Source of the DNA: Prochlorococcus sp. AG-347-I04
GTDB taxonomy: Bacteria > Cyanobacteriota > Cyanobacteriia > PCC-6307 > Cyanobiaceae
DNA length: 64,000 nt
Assembly (NCBI GenBank): GCA_003281625.1
Contig: QCBL01000008.1
Location: 1 to 64,000, forward strand
Reading direction: 5' to 3'
Shown here piece by piece: positions 38,473 through 63,483 of this stretch. The first letter of the stretch is position 1, and each line of letters begins with the position of its first letter. The notes beneath the pieces are model-generated. The model saw only the letters and a list, made by a program, of their open reading frames with translations. It was not told the origin of the DNA and did not search any database. A program made the translations under genes and the position numbers.

Positions 38473-39459
38473 TTGAAAACTCAACAAGAATATTTAATTA
38501 GATATAAAGATGGAAATCTTTATTGTGAACTTGCTGATATTTGGATTGATCCAAGCAAGCCAGTAAAAAAGGCATTAATAACTCATGCTCATTTTGATCA
38601 CTTTACATTTGGCTGTGAAGAATACATTTCTACTAAGGAAACTGCGATACTTCTAAAAGAAAGAGTTGGAGAAAATATCAAAATTAAGACTTATGAATTT
38701 GAAGAACAATTTAAGATAAATGGCATTAATATTTCTTTTCATCCATCCGGTCACATCCTTGGATCTAGTCAAATAAGGTTTATTTTTGCTGAAGAAAAAT
38801 GGTTAATTTCCGGTGACTTTAAGCTTCAAAAAGATGAGACTTGCAAACAATATGAAATAGTAAAAACTGATTATTTAATAAGCGAATGTACTTTTGGTTT
38901 GCCAATATTTAAGTGGGATGAATCAAAGAAGATAGCAAATGATATTTCAAAATGGATAACTAATTCACCAGAAAAAACTTCTTTACTTTTCTGTTATTCA
39001 CTTGGAAAAGCTCAGAGATTATTAAACGAAATTAGTCAAACAAATTTTAAAGGCAATATTTATTCCCATGGCAGTATTCATAGAATGAATAATATTTATA
39101 AAAAACTTGGAATTAATATTAAAGATTCTATAAAAATAGAAAATAAAAAAAAGATTGATGAACTTAAAGGAAGTCTAATATTATTGCCGCCATCTTTAAG
39201 TAAGGGCCCTTATCTAAAAAATTTCAAAAATATTCAAACAGCTTTTGCAAGTGGATGGATGTCAATAAGAGCTCTAAGAAAAAGGTCAGGTTATGACAAG
39301 GGATTTCCAATCTCGGATCATGCAGATTGGGATGGAATACTGGAAGTAGTAAAAAAGTCTGAAGCAAAAAATGTTTTTTTTCATCATGGAGATAGTGAAG
39401 CTTTAAGTAAATTTTTAGTTGAGAAGGAATTAATAAATGTTCTTTTCTTCGGTAAATAA
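38473..39459 (+). CDS. Ligase-associated DNA damage response exonuclease (metallo-beta-lactamase fold)
   Basis: This is the exonuclease of the four-gene ligase-associated repair module. The protein is 328 aa. The beta-lactamase/beta-CASP metal site HAHFDH is at residues 38-43 (H38, H40, D42, H43), with SGHILGSSQ near 95, SGDFK, SECTFG, the C-terminal SDHADWDG and FHHGD. It begins at TTG 38473 and ends two bases before the ligase start. In other bacteria this family member is co-encoded with an ATP-dependent ligase, an Lhr-like helicase and a phosphoesterase. All four are present here in that set. Confidence 0.92.
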   Translation: MKTQQEYLIRYKDGNLYCELADIWIDPSKPVKKALITHAHFDHFTFGCEEYISTKETAILLKERVGENIKIKTYEFEEQFKINGINISFHPSGHILGSSQIRFIFAEEKWLISGDFKLQKDETCKQYEIVKTDYLISECTFGLPIFKWDESKKIANDISKWITNSPEKTSLLFCYSLGKAQRLLNEISQTNFKGNIYSHGSIHRMNNIYKKLGINIKDSIKIENKKKIDELKGSLILLPPSLSKGPYLKNFKNIQTAFASGWMSIRALRKRSGYDKGFPISDHADWDGILEVVKKSEAKNVFFHHGDSEALSKFLVEKELINVLFFGK

Positions 39460-39461
39460 AT

Positions 39462-41102
39462 ATGAGCTTAAAAAATTTTTCAGAATTATTTGTAGATTTA
39501 GATTCAAGTAACAGTACAAATAATAAAATTGAAGTTTTAAAGAATTATTTTTTATCTAATGATCCAATAGAAAATTCATGGGCAATATATTTACTGACTG
39601 GAAAAAGTAATAAGAGATTTATTAGTGGAAGATATTTAAAAAATCTTTTTTCTCAAATATATGAATATCCTGAATGGTTAATTGATACATGCTATTTAAA
39701 AGTTGGTGATTCTGCTGAAGTAATAACGTTATTACTTAAAAATAAAAGTACTTCCAGAAAAAAGAAATTATCAAATATAAGTCTCAATGAATTACTAAGC
39801 AAAACAATTCCTGATTTATCAAAACTTAATGAGGAGGAGAAAAATTTTAAAATTAAAAATATATGGGAAACATTACCTGAAGATAACCATCTAATTTTCA
39901 ATAAAATTCTTACAGGAACTTTTAGAGTAGGAGTCTCTATCGGATTAGTAACAAAATCAATATCAAAACTAACTAATATTGATGAAGAGATTATTTCCCA
40001 TAGATTGATGGGAAAATTTGAGCCTTCAATTGATTCATATGAATTTTTAATTAACAAGAATATCAATCTTCAAGAGTTAAATTCCAAACCATTTCCATTT
40101 CTTCTAGCGAATACTATTGAAGATAAAATATTCAAACATTCAATAAATGATTTTCAATTTGAATGGAAATATGACGGTATAAGAATGCAATTAATAAAAA
40201 GATCAGGAAATGTTTCGTTATGGACAAGAGGGCAAGAATTAGTAAATGAATCTTTCCCAGAATTAGTAGAGAAAATGTCGCATATAAAAGATGATTTTGT
40301 TCTTGATGGGGAATTATTACTTTGGAATTTTAAAGAACAAATTGCCTTTGATTTTTCTTTACTTCAAAAGAGAATAAATAGAAAATCTCCTACTAGATCA
40401 ATCCAAAAAAAATATCCAATTATTTTTATTGCTTATGATCTTTTGGAGATTAATGGAAGAGATATAAGAGAAATTAAATTAGAAAATAGAAGAATTGAAT
40501 TAGAAAAATATTTTTCAAAATGGCAAATTAAAACTGAGAATAAAATCTCTGATTTTTTCAAAATATGTGATTTAATCTTTCCTAAAGATTGGTCTGATGC
40601 TTTAACTTATAAAGAAAAATCTCGAGAAAACAATACTGAAGGATTAATAATTAAGAAAAAGACTTCTGTATACTCCTCTGGTAGAAAAAAAGGTATTTGG
40701 TGGAAATATAAAGTTGATCCAATGCAACTGGATGCAGTTCTTATTTACGCTAAGGGCGGCAGCGGTAGAAGAGCTGGTCTGTATACTGACTACAGTTTTG
40801 CATTGTGGAAAGACCAAGAATTAATTAAATTTGCAAGTGCATATTCTGGTTTAACGAATATTGAGATTAAAGAGCTTGATAAATGGATAAGGAAAAATAC
40901 AATAGAAAAATTTGGTCCTGTTCGATCGTTAAAACCAGAAATGGTATTCGAAATATCTTTTGAGAAAATACAAATTTCAAAACGTCACAAGTCTGGCATA
41001 GCAGTAAGATTTCCAAGAATAACAAAATGGAGAAAAGATAAAAAAATCAATGATGCAGATAGTCTAGAGAATGCTTATGAACTGATGAAAAAAATATCAT
41101 GA
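39462..41102 (+). CDS. ATP-dependent DNA ligase (ligase-associated repair module)
   Basis: The protein is 546 aa. An N-terminal DNA-binding domain precedes the adenylation motif I EWKYDGIRMQ with the nucleophilic Lys at about residue 236. LDGELLLW (motif III), EGLIIKK (motif IV) and WWKYKVDP (motif V) follow, then an OB-fold domain with GRRAGLYTDY and the motif VI region RFPRITKWRKDK. This is a second, non-replicative ligase, since replication in bacteria uses NAD-dependent LigA. Its stop overlaps the helicase start by four bases. Confidence 0.95.
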   Translation: MSLKNFSELFVDLDSSNSTNNKIEVLKNYFLSNDPIENSWAIYLLTGKSNKRFISGRYLKNLFSQIYEYPEWLIDTCYLKVGDSAEVITLLLKNKSTSRKKKLSNISLNELLSKTIPDLSKLNEEEKNFKIKNIWETLPEDNHLIFNKILTGTFRVGVSIGLVTKSISKLTNIDEEIISHRLMGKFEPSIDSYEFLINKNINLQELNSKPFPFLLANTIEDKIFKHSINDFQFEWKYDGIRMQLIKRSGNVSLWTRGQELVNESFPELVEKMSHIKDDFVLDGELLLWNFKEQIAFDFSLLQKRINRKSPTRSIQKKYPIIFIAYDLLEINGRDIREIKLENRRIELEKYFSKWQIKTENKISDFFKICDLIFPKDWSDALTYKEKSRENNTEGLIIKKKTSVYSSGRKKGIWWKYKVDPMQLDAVLIYAKGGSGRRAGLYTDYSFALWKDQELIKFASAYSGLTNIEIKELDKWIRKNTIEKFGPVRSLKPEMVFEISFEKIQISKRHKSGIAVRFPRITKWRKDKKINDADSLENAYELMKKIS

Positions 41103-43585
41103 AAAATATTACGCAAAATAGAAAGCAAAATTATTTAATTTCCAAAATTAAACAGTTTTTCTTCTCAAATGGATGGGAGCCATTACCCTACCAAGTAGAA
41201 TCTTGGAAAGCATTTTTAAATGGGGAAAACGGAATAATTCAAGTTCCTACTGGATGCGGCAAAACTTACGCTGCATTAATGGGACCTTTATCACAGATAG
41301 AACATCCCAAAAATAATAAAAGTGTGCAAATATTATTAATAACCCCTTTGAAAGCACTAAGTAGAGATTTAAAAAATTCCATACAATTAGCAGCTTTACA
41401 TTTTAATAAAGAAATCACTGTTGAAATTAGGAATGGGGATACAACCCCATATGAAAAGAAAAAGCAACTAGCTAAACCTCCTAATATTCTTATTACCACT
41501 CCAGAGTCTTTATCTCTTTTACTTTCTAATAAAAAATCTAATAATCTTTTCAAGGAGTTGTCATCAATAATTATTGACGAATGGCATGAATTGATGGGTA
41601 GTAAAAGAGGAAATCAGTGCGAGTTATCTTTAAGTTGGTTAAGAGGTAATATAAAAAATTTACAAATTTGGGCAATGTCTGCAACTATTGGAAATATTGA
41701 ACAAGCAGCAAGAGCAATAGTTGGTATGAGCGCTATCAAACCCAAAATTATAAGTACAAATATTCAAAAAGACATAGAAATTATAAGCGTTTTGCCAGAG
41801 GAGGAAACTACCTTCCCATGGAGTGGCCATCTAGGAATCAGAAGCCATTCTTCACTTTTAAAAATTCTAGATAAAAATCAAAGCACCTTATTATTCACCA
41901 ATACAAGAAACCAATCTGAAAGATGGTATCAATGTCTTAAATTTTTTCTGCCAGAGATGGAAGACAAAATCGCACTTCATCACGGCTCCCTCGATAAAGA
42001 AGATAGAAAAAGAGTTGAAGAAGGGGTTAAAGACGGATTAATAAAATGGGTAGTCTGCACTAGCTCGTTAGATTTGGGAGTTGACTTCCAACCTGTAGAT
42101 CAAATAGTTCAAATTGGTAGTGCAAAGAATTTAGCTAGACTTATCCAAAGAGCAGGAAGAAGTGCTCACAGACCAGGCGGGAAATCAAAAATAATTTTTA
42201 TGCCTACTAATTCTTTGGAGTTATTAGAAATTAGTGCAATGAGAAGAATAATAAAAAGTGGTGTATCTGAAGAAATTAGACTTCCTGAATTATCTTATGA
42301 TGTGCTTCTACAACATCTGATAAGTTTGGCATGCGGAAATGGCTTTGATCCGAAAATTGAGAAAGAAAGAATTAAAAATTGTTGGAGTTATAGAAACTTA
42401 AAAGATCAAGATTGGAATTGGTGTCTTGACTTTTTAGAATATGGAGGAAAATGTCTTAAAGCATACCCAAAATATAAAAAGATAGTTAAAGAAGAATCAC
42501 AAAATAATAATGAAAACTTTAAATATTTTGTAAAAGACAAATCTTTAATAAGAATGCATAAGTTCAATATTGGGACAATTACAAGTGACAAATTTGTGAA
42601 TGTTAAATATATGAAAGGGCAATCCTTGGGAAATTTAGAAGAGAATTTTGCTTCAAAATTAAATCCTGGAGATACCTTTTACTTTGCAGGTAAAATGCTT
42701 CAATTTGTAAGAATCAGAGATATGATTTTATACGTTAAAAAATCAACAAAAAAAAGTTCTCTAATTCCTGCATGGGTTGGAGGTCAAATGGCAATTTCTG
42801 ATCTACTTTGTGAAAGTTTGAGAAAAGAAATAGATATATGCAATGAATCAGAAAATTATGGTTATTTGAATCCTGAACTCAATTCATTACGCCCAATATT
42901 GAAGAAACAACAGGTTCTTTCAAATATTCCAAAGAAAGATGAATTCCTTATAGAAATATATAAAACCAAGGATTTATCAAATATTTTTGTTTTTACACTT
43001 GATGGCAAATTTGTAAATGAAGGAATTGCATTTCTATGGGCTTTAAGATTTGCAAAATTAAAACAATCTACATTTAGTATTACTGCTAATGATTTTGGAT
43101 TCAGCTTAACTACATCAGAAGACTATGATTTTTCCATAATTAAAAAAGAAGCTGATTATTTTTTGGATAACAAAAAATTAGAGGAAGATCTTGAAAATGC
43201 AATTAATTTTTCAGAATTAACAAAACGTAGATTTAAAAATATTGCCCAGATAAGTGGACTAGTAAATCAAAATAATCCAACCAAAACAAAAACTTCTTCT
43301 CAACTTCAAATAAGTTCAAGTCTTTTCTACGATGTCTTTACTAAATATGAAGAGGGCCACCTTTTGATAAAACAATCGCATCAAGAAGTTAAAGAATATC
43401 AATTAGAAAATAAAAGAATATCTAGATCATTAGAAAGATTAAAAAATTTAAAAATGCTACTAAACGAGATAAAAACTCCAACCCCTTTTGCTTTCCCTTT
43501 ATTAGTTGAGAGACTTAAAAATACTTTAAGCAATGAACCAATAGAAAAAAGAGTAGAAAAACTTATAAAAAAATATAGTGATTAA
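41099..43585 (+). CDS. Ligase-associated DEXH-box helicase (Lhr-like)
   Basis: The protein is 828 aa. Walker A QVPTGCGKT is at about 48-56, DEWH box in IIDEWHELMGS at about 157-167, motif III MSATIG, and QRAGRSAHRPGG (motif VI), typical of Lhr-core 3'-5' helicases. A winged-helix and Lhr C-terminal domain follow. It overlaps the ligase stop and directly precedes the phosphoesterase gene (next base after its stop), so the four genes form one operon. Confidence 0.93.
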   Translation: MKNITQNRKQNYLISKIKQFFFSNGWEPLPYQVESWKAFLNGENGIIQVPTGCGKTYAALMGPLSQIEHPKNNKSVQILLITPLKALSRDLKNSIQLAALHFNKEITVEIRNGDTTPYEKKKQLAKPPNILITTPESLSLLLSNKKSNNLFKELSSIIIDEWHELMGSKRGNQCELSLSWLRGNIKNLQIWAMSATIGNIEQAARAIVGMSAIKPKIISTNIQKDIEIISVLPEEETTFPWSGHLGIRSHSSLLKILDKNQSTLLFTNTRNQSERWYQCLKFFLPEMEDKIALHHGSLDKEDRKRVEEGVKDGLIKWVVCTSSLDLGVDFQPVDQIVQIGSAKNLARLIQRAGRSAHRPGGKSKIIFMPTNSLELLEISAMRRIIKSGVSEEIRLPELSYDVLLQHLISLACGNGFDPKIEKERIKNCWSYRNLKDQDWNWCLDFLEYGGKCLKAYPKYKKIVKEESQNNNENFKYFVKDKSLIRMHKFNIGTITSDKFVNVKYMKGQSLGNLEENFASKLNPGDTFYFAGKMLQFVRIRDMILYVKKSTKKSSLIPAWVGGQMAISDLLCESLRKEIDICNESENYGYLNPELNSLRPILKKQQVLSNIPKKDEFLIEIYKTKDLSNIFVFTLDGKFVNEGIAFLWALRFAKLKQSTFSITANDFGFSLTTSEDYDFSIIKKEADYFLDNKKLEEDLENAINFSELTKRRFKNIAQISGLVNQNNPTKTKTSSQLQISSSLFYDVFTKYEEGHLLIKQSHQEVKEYQLENKRISRSLERLKNLKMLLNEIKTPTPFAFPLLVERLKNTLSNEPIEKRVEKLIKKYSD

Positions 43586-44236
43586 ATGAAAAAAAGTTCT
43601 TTTAAATTTTATTGGGAAGATACATTGTTAGAGATGCTTCCTTCAAGAGCCTTATTTCTTCCTGAAACAAAAGAGTTGTTAATATGCGATATTCATCTTG
43701 GCAAAGCTGAGTATTTTCAGCAAAATGGAATACCTCTTACTAATGATTCAGATAAAAATAATTTCGCAAGAATAAAAAATATAGTGAAAAAATATAGTCC
43801 TGAAAAGTTAATAATATTGGGAGATTTATTCCACAGCAAATATTCAATAGATAAAACTCTTCAAAAAAAAGTTGAGGATCTTCCTGAACTACTAAAAATT
43901 AATGTTGAACTAATCCTCGGAAATCATGATGTAGATTGTGCTATTAAAAATATAAAAATTTTTGACATTAGAAAATCCAAAAACATTACATTTAGCCATG
44001 AGCCAGTTAATTTAGAAAACAATAAAACCTTGAATATTTGTGGACATTATCATCCAAAAATCTATTTAAAAAATAATGGAGATAAATTATCTTTAAGGTG
44101 TTTTGCAATGGATAAGAATAAAAATACTTTATTTTTGCCTGCATTTGGAGACTTAACAGGAGGATATCCCTGCAAAAAGTCATTTAAAAAATGGGCAATT
44201 TTATCTGAAGAAGAAATTATCGAAATAAAATCTTAA
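43586..44236 (+). CDS. pdeM: Ligase-associated metallophosphoesterase, PdeM type
   Basis: The protein is 216 aa, a calcineurin-like phosphoesterase. Metal motifs are DIHLGKAE (about 35-42), GDLFHSK, GNHD, SHEP and GHYHP in the expected order. It starts on the base after the helicase stop. In characterised relatives it is a DNA phosphodiesterase/endonuclease co-encoded with the Lhr helicase, ligase and exonuclease. This closes the four-gene repair module. Confidence 0.92.
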   Translation: MKKSSFKFYWEDTLLEMLPSRALFLPETKELLICDIHLGKAEYFQQNGIPLTNDSDKNNFARIKNIVKKYSPEKLIILGDLFHSKYSIDKTLQKKVEDLPELLKINVELILGNHDVDCAIKNIKIFDIRKSKNITFSHEPVNLENNKTLNICGHYHPKIYLKNNGDKLSLRCFAMDKNKNTLFLPAFGDLTGGYPCKKSFKKWAILSEEEIIEIKS

Positions 44237-60733: not shown

Positions 60734-61024
60734 TTACTGGAATTTATTAGTAACAATTTGCCAATCCCCTGAAATTAATTCATTCCATGTTTCACAAGCA
60801 CACTCAATAGAATGAAGTCTTGAATTTTTAATTTGGGCTGGTTCACCTAATTCATTTGCATAGAAAAGATGAGTATATACTTTTAAGTTATTAGATACAG
60901 ATTTCTTATAACTCTCAAAAAAAATTAATAAACCACTTTTTTTGTTAAACAACCAGCCAGTTGGGGGGTCAATAAGGCTGCCACAATAAAAATAAGTCCG
61001 AACATTAGCGACTCCTGAAGTCAT
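60734..61024 (-). CDS. Paralogue A of a small unknown family, 96 aa
   Basis: Not recognised, but clearly homologous to the gene at 63,184-63,483. Shared features are the start MTxGxANVxTxFxYG, PxGWLxxxxSxLIxF, HxxYANxLGEPxxIK and a terminal W-rich helix, so it has the same fold. It has two Cys near the end (ECACETWNEL). It is preceded by a well-formed promoter (61,048-61,076) shared with the paralogue. It is followed by the zinc-finger-like gene. Confidence 0.7.
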   Translation of the reverse strand: MTSGVANVRTYFYCGSLIDPPTGWLFNKKSGLLIFFESYKKSVSNNLKVYTHLFYANELGEPAQIKNSRLHSIECACETWNELISGDWQIVTNKFQ

Positions 61025-61523: not shown

Positions 61524-61781
61524 GTGTCCAATAAATTTTATGAATGGTGGAAAAACCATAGAAAAGTCATAACCTACGGGGCTTTTATCATCTTGTTTGG
61601 TTTTTATTTATCTCCTGTTGTTAAAGAAGCAAAATACAAAAACCAATGTATTAAGTACTCTACTAAAGGAGCTTTAACTAAATTTAATAAGGACGATATT
61701 GGAGAAACTTTACTAGAAGAAACCGGTTTGAATATTGATGAACTAGCAAAGATTGAAGGTTATAAGAATTGCATTAATTAA
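61524..61781 (+). CDS. Single-span membrane protein, 85 aa
   Basis: Not recognised. From GTG 61524, residues 1-15 are polar, then one helix (YGAFIILFGFYLSPVV) and an outer acidic domain with two Cys (KNQCIKYSTKG, IEGYKNCIN). The PVxKxAK...C motif after the helix resembles that of the 145-aa protein at 32,788, a possible distant paralogue. Confidence 0.55.
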   Translation: MSNKFYEWWKNHRKVITYGAFIILFGFYLSPVVKEAKYKNQCIKYSTKGALTKFNKDDIGETLLEETGLNIDELAKIEGYKNCIN

Positions 61782-61812: not shown

Positions 61813-62031
61813 ATGTTTAAAAGTTTGTTTAAAATTGTTTTATTAATATTATTATTTGGATTTATATCAATAAGTCCAAAAACAAGATATTTGGTTGGCA
61901 TAACTCTAAAAGAAATTTCTTCATTTCTTTTATGGACTGTTAAATATGAAGAAAGAGAAAAATGGATTATAGATAAACCAAGTTGGATGCCTAGTTGGAT
62001 ACCTAGCCGAAAACTTAAGCCATCGTATTAA
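61813..62031 (+). CDS. Hypothetical membrane-associated protein, 72 aa
   Basis: Not recognised. It has an N-terminal hydrophobic helix (MFKSLFKIVLLILLFGFISI), then a Trp-rich region (EKWIIDKPSWMPSWIPSRKL). Its stop is immediately followed by the start of the ligase-like gene, so the two are probably one transcript. Confidence 0.55.
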   Translation: MFKSLFKIVLLILLFGFISISPKTRYLVGITLKEISSFLLWTVKYEEREKWIIDKPSWMPSWIPSRKLKPSY

Positions 62032-62781
62032 ATGAAGACTTATTTAGAAGAACGAATTGAATGGTATGAGGATAATTATAGACATGGTAATGCTTTAATC
62101 TCTGATAAGCAGTTCGACCAACTTGAAAAAAATTTATTAAGAACAAACCCTAATTGTGATTACTTTAAAAAGAAAAATAAACTAGTTTTACCTTCATTAG
62201 AAAAGGATTCAATAGATGAATTTTTGAAAGGATTATTAGTAGATACCAGATTATTAATTGAACCAAAAATTGATGGTTGTGCTGTTGCTTTGCAATATAG
62301 GGATGGAACCTTGGAGAAAGCAATTTCAAGAAAAGGGGTAGACGTTACTAGTAAACTTACCAAAGTCCAAGACATCCCCAATAATCTCCCTTTACGAGGA
62401 GTTCTTCAAGTTAGAGGTGAATTATATGCACCCAACCAAAGTCCAAATATCTCCCAGAGAATCGCTTCTGGATTTCTAAGAGCTAAAGAAGGATTTTCTG
62501 AGAGTCTTAGCTTCTGCGCATTTCAAATACTTAATTCAACGCTTAACCAATATGAGTCCAAAAAGAGTCTTTCAAAGCTTGGTTTCACGATCCCTCAGGA
62601 TATTTCATGCAACTTTACGAGCCAAGTTGAAGTATTTAGAAAACAATGGCTTGAAGGGAAGCTTTTTAGTAAATATCCAACAGATGGAATAGTAGTAAAA
62701 ATAAATTCTAGAAAATTACAATTGATTAGAGAAAAATCAAATCTAGATTATCCTTATTGGCAAGTGGCAATAAAACGTTAA
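62032..62781 (+). CDS. Stand-alone NAD-dependent DNA ligase-like adenylation domain, 249 aa
   Basis: The protein covers the ligase Ia-like segment (RHGNALISDKQFDQLEKNL) and the nucleotidyltransferase domain of LigA. Adenylation motif I KIDGCAVAL has Lys at about residue 79, motif III LQVRGELY has Glu near 130, motif IV is TDGIVVKIN, and motif V WQVAIKR sits at the very end. It lacks the OB fold, zinc finger, helix-hairpin-helix and BRCT parts that normally add another 350 residues. The stop at 62,781 is a clean TAA inside the motif V region and overlaps the next ATG, so this looks like an evolved truncation, not sequence loss. Confidence 0.85.
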   Translation: MKTYLEERIEWYEDNYRHGNALISDKQFDQLEKNLLRTNPNCDYFKKKNKLVLPSLEKDSIDEFLKGLLVDTRLLIEPKIDGCAVALQYRDGTLEKAISRKGVDVTSKLTKVQDIPNNLPLRGVLQVRGELYAPNQSPNISQRIASGFLRAKEGFSESLSFCAFQILNSTLNQYESKKSLSKLGFTIPQDISCNFTSQVEVFRKQWLEGKLFSKYPTDGIVVKINSRKLQLIREKSNLDYPYWQVAIKR

Positions 62782-62894
62782 TGGAATTAATACACCAGAT
62801 TTTTCCTACTTGGCACATTTACTTGGATATGTTTTTGGTTGGCTTTGCAACTTACGGTTTTCTGAGAATTAAGAAAAAAATAAAAACTAAATAA
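62781..62894 (+). CDS. 37-aa single-helix peptide coupled to the ligase-like gene
   Basis: ATG 62781 shares a base with the TAA of the ligase-like gene (TAATG). The product MELIHQIFPTWHIYLDMFLV continues GFATYGFLRI and has a basic tail (KKKIKTK): one membrane helix. It is not recognised. Coupling to a ligase-like gene suggests membrane tethering or simple operon crowding. Confidence 0.5.
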   Translation: MELIHQIFPTWHIYLDMFLVGFATYGFLRIKKKIKTK

Positions 62895-63057: not shown

Positions 63058-63187
63058 ACTTATATTCTTCATCAAGTTCAATGACAACACCATTAAAAAA
63101 TTCTGCTAATAATTTTGATGGGTCTTGCATAGATATCTTTCTATCTACTTTTGATAATTTCTTTTTGATTGGATTTAAGTTAGTCAT
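63047..63187 (-). CDS. Hypothetical protein, 46 aa
   Basis: ATG 63187 to TAA 63047. It has a basic N-terminal part (MTNLNPIKKKLSKVDRKISM) and then PSKLLAEFFNGVVIELDEEY. Its start overlaps the paralogue B stop by four bases (ATGA). It resembles a small beta-alpha module, but I cannot assign it. Confidence 0.5.
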   Translation of the reverse strand: MTNLNPIKKKLSKVDRKISMQDPSKLLAEFFNGVVIELDEEYKYDS

Positions 63188-63483
63188 ACAGATTCAGGTA
63201 ATTCAAGTTCTTCAAAAGTCCAACCTTCTAATTGAAGGTCATGCCATTTATCCCAAGCATTATCCAAATACATTTGAGTGGACGATTTAATTGCCATTGG
63301 CTCACCAAGATCATTTGCATAATATGTATGAGCAAAAATTCTCAAACTATTTCTTGGAGATTTTTTATTCCTTATAAATAAAATTAATCTGCTGCGGTCT
63401 GGGCTAAGCAACCAACCACTTGGGGACTCATTACGATAACCGTAAGAAAAATTAGTCCAAACATTAGCTCCTCCTAAAGTCAT
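63184..63483 (-). CDS. Paralogue B of a small unknown family, 99 aa
   Basis: It is homologous to the gene at 60,734-61,024 (shared ANVxTxFxYG, SPSGWLxSPDRSRLILF, HTYYANDLGEP, IK, terminal W-rich helix). It has no Cys, unlike paralogue A. It is the first of three translationally coupled genes and is driven by a promoter near identical to that of paralogue A. Function is unknown. Confidence 0.7.
   Translation of the reverse strand: MTLGGANVWTNFSYGYRNESPSGWLLSPDRSRLILFIRNKKSPRNSLRIFAHTYYANDLGEPMAIKSSTQMYLDNAWDKWHDLQLEGWTFEELELPESV

Follow-up and report, generated by a model that had tools for sequence, protein, structure and literature searches.

An OB-less NAD-ligase adenylation protein of Prochlorococcus belongs to a clade shared with marine virus contigs, and most mobile copies in its genus overlap site-specific recombinase genes

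The Prochlorococcus DNA analyzed here (a stretch of 64,000 nt, hereafter the window) carries a gene for a stand-alone NAD-ligase adenylation protein of 249 amino acids (Table 1). This open reading frame is real, intact and under selection. Judged from sequence comparisons, its product is a member of an OB-less adenylation clade that is shared with marine virus contigs. The preliminary description of this DNA had singled out the coupling of the gene to a 37-amino acid peptide; the telling partnership of the family is instead with site-specific recombinases at mobile loci. The explanation that we prefer, tentatively and at somewhat less than even confidence, is that this is an OB-less adenylation family of mobile DNA, whose NAD+-charged adenylyltransferase may serve mobile-element recombination and would need a partner for joining.

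Table 1 Coordinates of the stand-alone adenylation gene, its neighbors and the two ATP-dependent ligase genes of the same genome
Feature	Position	Strand	Basis or remark
Stand-alone NAD-ligase adenylation protein, 249 aa (domain Ia + nucleotidyltransferase domain, no OB)	62032..62781	+	Pfam, TIGR, alignment, model
Domain Ia, residues 1-50	62032..62181	+	Alignment to E. coli LigA
Motif I KIDG, residues 79-82, predicted AMP acceptor Lys79	62266..62277	+	
Motif III RGEL, residues 128-131	62413..62424	+	
Motif IV DGIVVK, residues 218-223	62683..62700	+	
Motif V Lys248	62773..62775	+	Protein stops at residue 249
37-aa hydrophobic peptide ORF	62781..62894	+	No Pfam/NCBIfam match; one-helix reading by eye
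72-aa hydrophobic ORF, ends directly before the ligase ATG	61813..62031	+	Relative in 15/15 locus-1 loci (14 genomes)
85-aa ORF, marker of locus 1	61524..61781	+	
DUF1651 gene flanking locus 1	60734..61024	-	
DUF1651 gene flanking locus 1, other side	63184..63483	-	
TIGR04120 ATP-dependent ligase, damage-response cluster, separate system	39462..41102	+	Over cut-off
Pmar-Lig gene, own genome	L247:9123-10451, contig C12		Compared with L077, L248, L249, L250 and L262

The 249-aa protein matches the DNA_ligase_aden model (PF01653; 2.6e-19, 70.2 bits against a curated cut-off of 27) and falls far below the cut-off of the LigA model (TIGR00575; 71.5 against 444 bits), to which its residues 71-248 align at model positions 95-301 of 652. 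It resembles LigA (E. coli NC_000913 b2411) in domain Ia, the nucleotidyltransferase domain, motifs I, III, IV and V, and fold (Z ~21-22), but it has 249 rather than ~670 residues, and the OB, zinc finger, HhH and BRCT domains belong to LigA alone. In the alignment with the E. coli enzyme, K115, D117, E173, D285, K290 and K314 correspond to Lys79, Asp81, Glu130, Asp218, Lys223 and Lys248, motif I retains K79, D81 and G82, and the C-terminus lies one residue past motif V. The earlier reading that the four motifs stand in order and that the protein ends at the last of them was thus confirmed, as was the lack of the four C-terminal domains from the chain; no OB follows downstream, and the OB model PF03120 found no match in the protein's own genome. 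Domain Ia, absent from the preliminary description, is present as well (approximately residues 1-50): Y16, R17, D25, F28 and D29 align with E. coli Y22, H23, D32, Y35 and D36, residues that have a role in NMN binding. There are several departures from LigA: H23 is replaced by Arg, and Y35 and Y225 by Phe; E143 has no counterpart; and in the shortened loop around R200 this residue has become Gln, with an Arg one residue on. A structure model built from 52 sequences (pLDDT 89.6, pTM 0.76) aligned over residues 51-249, the part used for fold comparison, with LigA adenylation domains at a Z of 22.0 (194 residues, 2.3 Å); an earlier one, based on 11 sequences, was of low quality (pLDDT 61.4) and was not used. 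The same assembly (G000; 92.87% complete, 34 contigs) carries a second stand-alone copy at C1:75045 that is 51% identical. The nearest matches with a name were from Prochlorococcus, strains MIT 9401 and MIT 9314 included.

Nearly all genomes in the genus of the window genome (g1) contain a relative of this gene. A query with the single protein found matches in 68 of 73 g1 genomes, the five without a match being 52-81% complete, and a query with alignment A1 in genomes at least 90% complete (E 1e-30) found them in 66 of 66 g1 genomes and in 20 others (g57, g62 and g65). The 249-aa gene itself is not universal, since several genomes have a locus-2 copy only (see below) and the sole match in G347 is interrupted by eight stops. 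In genomes that have the gene, a frame length of 249 aa has few exceptions, and orthologues stop at motif V. Across 291 genomes of the phylum, short frames were seen, among the matches listed, only in g1, g65 (G150) and g57 (G142), the others being full-length LigA of ~650-730 aa. The claim that the gene is not a frameshift remnant held up: the 249-aa frame is intact, and none of the homologues examined was full length with the missing domains in a shifted frame. Among the window copy and the 29 orthologues nearest to it of those fetched, dN/dS was 0.162, against 0.994 and 1.494 in the shifted frames of the same DNA, which argues that the reading frame is more than chance.

Residue conservation was read from 52 aligned relatives with identities down to 29%. 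The motif I lysine has not been lost from relatives (K79, 52/52), and D81 (50/52), E130 (50/52), D218 (48/52), K223 (50/52) and K248 (47/52) are likewise retained by most. In domain Ia, D25 is kept in 50/52 and D29 in 49/52, and Y16 in all 50 relatives with a residue there. The place of E. coli H23 is taken by Arg in 50 of the 50 with a residue there, and that of Y35 by Phe in most.

Relatives of the protein were found at 43 loci in IMG/VR. They comprise 34 proteins whose C-termini lie 0-10 residues past the aligned region of motif V, seven of T5-like form, in which the OB adds a tail of ~97 residues, a single full-length enzyme and another protein of 342 aa; every stand-alone protein read in the low-light genera also ends within those 0-10 residues. 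In a maximum-likelihood tree of 88 sequences, in which branches are long, the OB-less proteins formed one group (bootstrap 90, or 98 without L205) that was sister to the T5-like ligases (99) and outside cellular LigA. The Prochlorococcus proteins were nested among virus ones (nodes 98, 95 and 100), and one virus contig (L174) was nested in the g1 group (node 81). The window protein, which ends within ~10 residues of motif V, grouped with the virus stand-alones.

The virus contigs with the stand-alone gene carry primase-helicase, SF2 helicase and nuclease genes; a PDDEXK nuclease gene is present in L296 and a RusA gene in L174. Terminase (PF03237) was found in 0 of the 34 virus records. A match to the minor tail protein family phrog_1924 occurs at all 34 OB-less virus loci (L174-L205, L208 and L214), usually just upstream; the gene has no Pfam match and sits among replication genes. 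In isolated phages, two virus stand-alones found relatives (E 1e-12) in 2 and 6 records, of which the three examined (H41, H42 and H45) are full length. Three of 500 phage records, mostly T5-like by listing, were examined: T5 and TS3 encode adenylation plus OB domains, and BONAISHI a full-length enzyme. A fold search of BFVD retrieved G8EY44 of Synechococcus phage S-CAM8 (193 aa) and A0A1L7N0Y9 of Ralstonia phage RP12 (235 aa), which share the compact, nucleotidyltransferase-only ligase fold and a similar size with the window protein, but are only 20% and 13% identical to it, uncharacterised and outside the 88-sequence tree. These two proteins may represent additional OB-less types among isolated phages. 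A previous report (PMC11357015) describes, in its accessible part, an NAD-ligase virus family confined to certain low-light strains, which is a partial sign of the same pattern.

Copies in the genus were sorted by their neighbor genes. Locus 1, marked by the 85-aa ORF, comprises the window copy and 15 loci from 14 genomes, and locus 2, marked by a 309-aa SDR gene and in several cases tRNA-Val, comprises 17 loci. Five copies (L058, L074, L310, L311 and L318) share a site that has tRNA-Ser and an rsuA-like gene, and 17 lie elsewhere (L064, L065, L066, L067, L068, L071, L073, L075, L076, L260, L263, L264, L265, L307, L308, L312 and L323). In 12 of these last 17, from 12 genomes, the ATG of the adenylation gene begins one base before the stop of a recombinase gene, giving a 4-bp overlap. 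The recombinase is of the tyrosine type in eight (L065, L067, which is a fragment, L068, L075, L260, L264, L265 and L307) and a large serine recombinase in four (L071, L073, in which the adenylation gene itself is broken, L076 and L263); an identical overlap occurs in genus g65 (L255b). As close relatives are among them (L076/L263 and L065/L265), the twelve overlaps are not twelve independent events. The five copies without the overlap are L064, L066, L308, L312, which has less than 400 nt of DNA upstream, and L323, a truncated copy directly 3' of a tyrosine recombinase with a one-base overlap.

The serine recombinases exceed the Pfam cut-offs of both the Resolvase and Recombinase models. Among the tyrosine type the cut-off of PF00589 (Phage_integrase) is passed by L068 only and the others fall below it, with no Pfam match for L260, which was recognized only with a profile that includes its own sequence; the phrog_1 integrase family supports L068 and L075. 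With two family profiles, no recombinase match was found beside any locus-1 copy (the window and 14 other genomes) or at the 17 locus-2 loci. The window copy thus lacks the recombinase overlap that is found in its relatives, and no tRNA was found in the window. One mobile locus (L075) combines tRNA-Ser with a tyrosine recombinase, and L074 is also beside tRNA-Ser. In their recombinase genes and this tRNA-Ser, such loci are like tycheposons, the tRNA-anchored mobile elements of Prochlorococcus. Behind the recombinase/adenylation pair at L075 (locus G049:C8) lies what, judged by eye, resembles a gene for a type I restriction methyltransferase (L075:808-2263 relative to the gene).

Selection and motif retention were also compared between these places. 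All 11 intact recombinase-linked copies keep motif I, the motif IV Asp and the motif V Lys, and dN/dS was 0.154 for 13 copies, recombinase-linked and other, as calculated from the 68 of 78 pairs that could be used and with dS close to saturation. Among the 17 locus-2 copies, the motif V Lys is lost in 10, the domain Ia Asp at the place of E. coli D36 in 10 and the motif IV Asp in 8, and motif I is altered in L306; dN/dS was 0.38 in the eight most decayed and 0.30 in all 17.

The 37-aa peptide is tied to the window gene as had been described: the stop TAA (62779-62781) and the peptide's ATG (62781-62783) have one base in common, at 62781. The peptide accompanies 30 of the 30 closest orthologues, and its dN/dS of 0.128 points to purifying selection. 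Of the other locus-1 genomes 11 of 14 have it (15 loci, two of them in one genome), and it was not found at the deeper loci whose junctions were read, with the exception of a 70% relative somewhere in L058. The coupling is therefore real as an overlap but is not supported as a defining partnership: the peptide is a lineage-specific companion, and a role as general partner was rejected, as it is not constant across loci. For the 72-aa ORF on the other side, the dN/dS of 1.57 is a misalignment artefact (the frame fitted in 5 of 30) and not an estimate of selection. The two DUF1651 genes that bracket the ligase gene are a duplicated pair. Two RNAs score over their gathering thresholds in the window, 6S RNA (RF00013; 63645-63829, minus strand) and Yfr17 (RF02365; 54338-54592, minus strand).

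Our preferred explanation, a charged adenylyltransferase that would serve mobile-element recombination, draws on the residues kept in the 52 relatives, the model fold, the dN/dS values, the recombinase overlaps, the motifs of the linked copies, the virus neighbors and a truncated ligase, LigN. In marine virus contigs the gene lies within recombination and replication gene blocks; in mobile elements of Prochlorococcus it forms a pair with a site-specific recombinase gene, which comes first. Domain Ia would bind the NMN half of NAD+, and Lys79 would take the AMP as NMN leaves, as the conserved residues and the fold suggest. The charged protein may then act at a strand break or recombination intermediate held by a partner, at mobile loci the recombinase, that would replace the OB fold and the C-terminal clamp; AMP would be passed to a 5' phosphate, or an already adenylated nick closed. 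Self-adenylation, DNA as the target and a physical partnership are what we infer. The present use of the window copy is a further step removed, since it is a settled locus-1 relative with no adjacent recombinase.

Domain Ia and the adenylation domain alone should suffice for charging. LigN deprived of its zinc finger, HhH and BRCT domains, with Ia, adenylation and OB domains kept, was charged by NAD+ equally to the full enzyme but did not ligate, according to the part of the report available to us (PMC1684257). If the 249-aa protein behaves analogously, it should become charged unaided but depend on a helper for any later step, and the recombinase coupling suggests which protein that may be. 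Several observations count against this explanation. The truncated LigN retained its OB, E143 and R200 of LigA are not matched, H23, Y35 and Y225 are substituted, five of the 17 mobile copies have no overlap, the window copy, the 14 other locus-1 genomes and the 17 locus-2 loci have no adjacent recombinase, and the neighbor that the virus contigs share is a tail-protein-like gene. Moreover, site-specific recombinases close the strands that they cut and can do without a ligase. A bolder proposal, which we consider rather unlikely, is that ocean mobile elements carry an integration module of two genes, one for a recombinase of either chemistry and one for an NAD+-charged OB-less adenylyltransferase. 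The second gene would repair or adenylate integration breaks, or gate them by NAD+ state; NAD+ would be an integration cofactor, and settled copies would be near-core in the most abundant phototroph.

The strongest rival is a regulator that uses NAD+ and has no part in DNA joining. Its adenylylation target would be the recombinase, some other protein or a small molecule; alternatively, it would act as a gauge of NAD+ by which excision and integration are gated. The adenylation residues are kept, yet OB and DNA-clamp domains are lacking from the protein, from the genus and from the 34 virus records, and pairing with two unrelated recombinase classes would be expected of a regulator to which the chemistry of recombination does not matter. 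However, the lysines of motifs IV and V, which ligases need for AMP handling and later steps, are kept as well, and nothing points to a protein or small-molecule acceptor. We regard a non-joining role as unlikely, though a serious contender.

Split and phage-borne NAD ligases are known, and the 249-aa protein could be one subunit of such an enzyme, with OB and C-terminal domains supplied in trans. Precedents are phage T5, with two genes (dnlj1 and dnlj2), and phage PR1, whose heterodimeric NAD ligase is in the PDB (9hu3 and 9i5i). The T5-type subunit is also phage-borne and ends before the C-terminal domains, and its clade is the sister of the OB-less one. Yet the T5 split is a different one, since T5 keeps the adenylation domain and OB together in one chain and it is the second chain that matches zinc finger, HhH and BRCT, whereas neither an OB nor a second subunit gene is in sight for the 249-aa family, and the window protein has no OB match and falls outside the T5 clade. 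PF03120, a search that would miss a diverged or unrelated OB, exceeded its cut-off in only 2 of 81 g1 genomes at least 90% complete (G346 and G364, both with LigA; G347 gave E 0.18, below the cut-off), and in 0 of 34 virus records with the stand-alone gene, which may be fragments, as against 3 of 3 T5-like ones. The other matches to TIGR00575 in the window's own genome are weak and cover the helix-hairpin-helix part only; a diverged second subunit could escape such a search. A T5-style split, weakened by the missing OB, is therefore improbable.

The losses at locus 2, with dN/dS of 0.30 to 0.38, would suit a ligase-shaped binding protein without catalysis that is kept for structure or regulation, but the very residues concerned are retained in the window copy as well as in all 11 recombinase-linked copies that are intact, and we find this reading improbable. 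The idea of a remnant of the host's lost LigA has almost nothing in its favor beyond the genus having lost LigA and kept adenylation domains, with both in the same genomes, and it was rejected because the ligA place lies elsewhere and is filled by an ATP ligase, full LigA coexists with the family in g62, g65, g57 and G346, the tree groups the family with virus proteins, and dN/dS is 0.16.

The fate of LigA itself in this genus is a second finding. TIGR00575 exceeds its cut-off in 183 of 250 genomes of the family, but a full-length LigA score was obtained in only 1 of 66 g1 genomes (G346) and is missing in 65, the window's own included. PF01068 was matched in 64 of the 66, G346 and G352 being without. 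Besides the TIGR04120 ligase, the window's genome encodes a 442-aa ATP ligase that is Pmar-Lig by sequence (6RAU, 1.6e-283). Its gene occupies the place that ligA has in G346, G364 (in broken frames), g65, g62 and g55, flanked by the same neighbors. Orthologues occur in 75 of 81 g1 genomes, and both flanking genes were present at 30 of the 30 loci checked of these 75; the genomes without one are G346 and G364, both with LigA, and G034, G352, G353 and G361, which are 91-94% complete. In this Prochlorococcus genus, LigA has thus been displaced in situ by the ATP ligase Pmar-Lig. The part of the Pmar-Lig report available to us calls this ligase additional to the replicative NAD enzyme (PMC6698739), which the g1 genomes do not bear out, and an ATP ligase is listed among early losses in Prochlorococcus in the accessible text of another (PMC3940434), although a TIGR04120 gene is seen here. 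No description of the LigA swap was found in the PubMed Central open subset.

Pmar-Lig (6RAU and 6RCE) occurs in the same genomes as the 249-aa protein and shares its nucleotidyltransferase fold (Z ~14.7), but it is ATP-dependent, includes DNA-binding and OB domains of its own, and is encoded separately, at the former ligA locus. The preliminary description had noted the coexistence of the stand-alone gene with a full ATP ligase at 39,462; that ligase is indeed above the TIGR04120 cut-off, although the one that replaces LigA at its locus is another, elsewhere in the genome. Positions 38473-44236 form a complete damage-response cluster, with the TIGR04122 exonuclease, TIGR04120 ATP ligase, TIGR04121 DEXH helicase and TIGR04123 endonuclease PdeM all over their cut-offs.

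A catalytically conserved, OB-less clade coupled to two unrelated recombinase classes was not found in those texts of the PubMed Central open subset that were available to us, though the paper that defined tycheposons may list the gene. Site-specific recombination is regarded as a reaction that needs no external energy. If our preferred explanation of an NAD+-charged adenylyltransferase is true, a cofactor-using partner would be added to this process, and a natural adenylation domain without an OB would make the minimum required for each ligation step testable. The displacement of LigA at its own locus by Pmar-Lig, an ATP ligase whose structure with DNA is already solved, matters equally. The value of LigA as an antibacterial target lies in the supposed dependence of bacteria on this enzyme, and here is a free-living lineage that is apparently independent of it.
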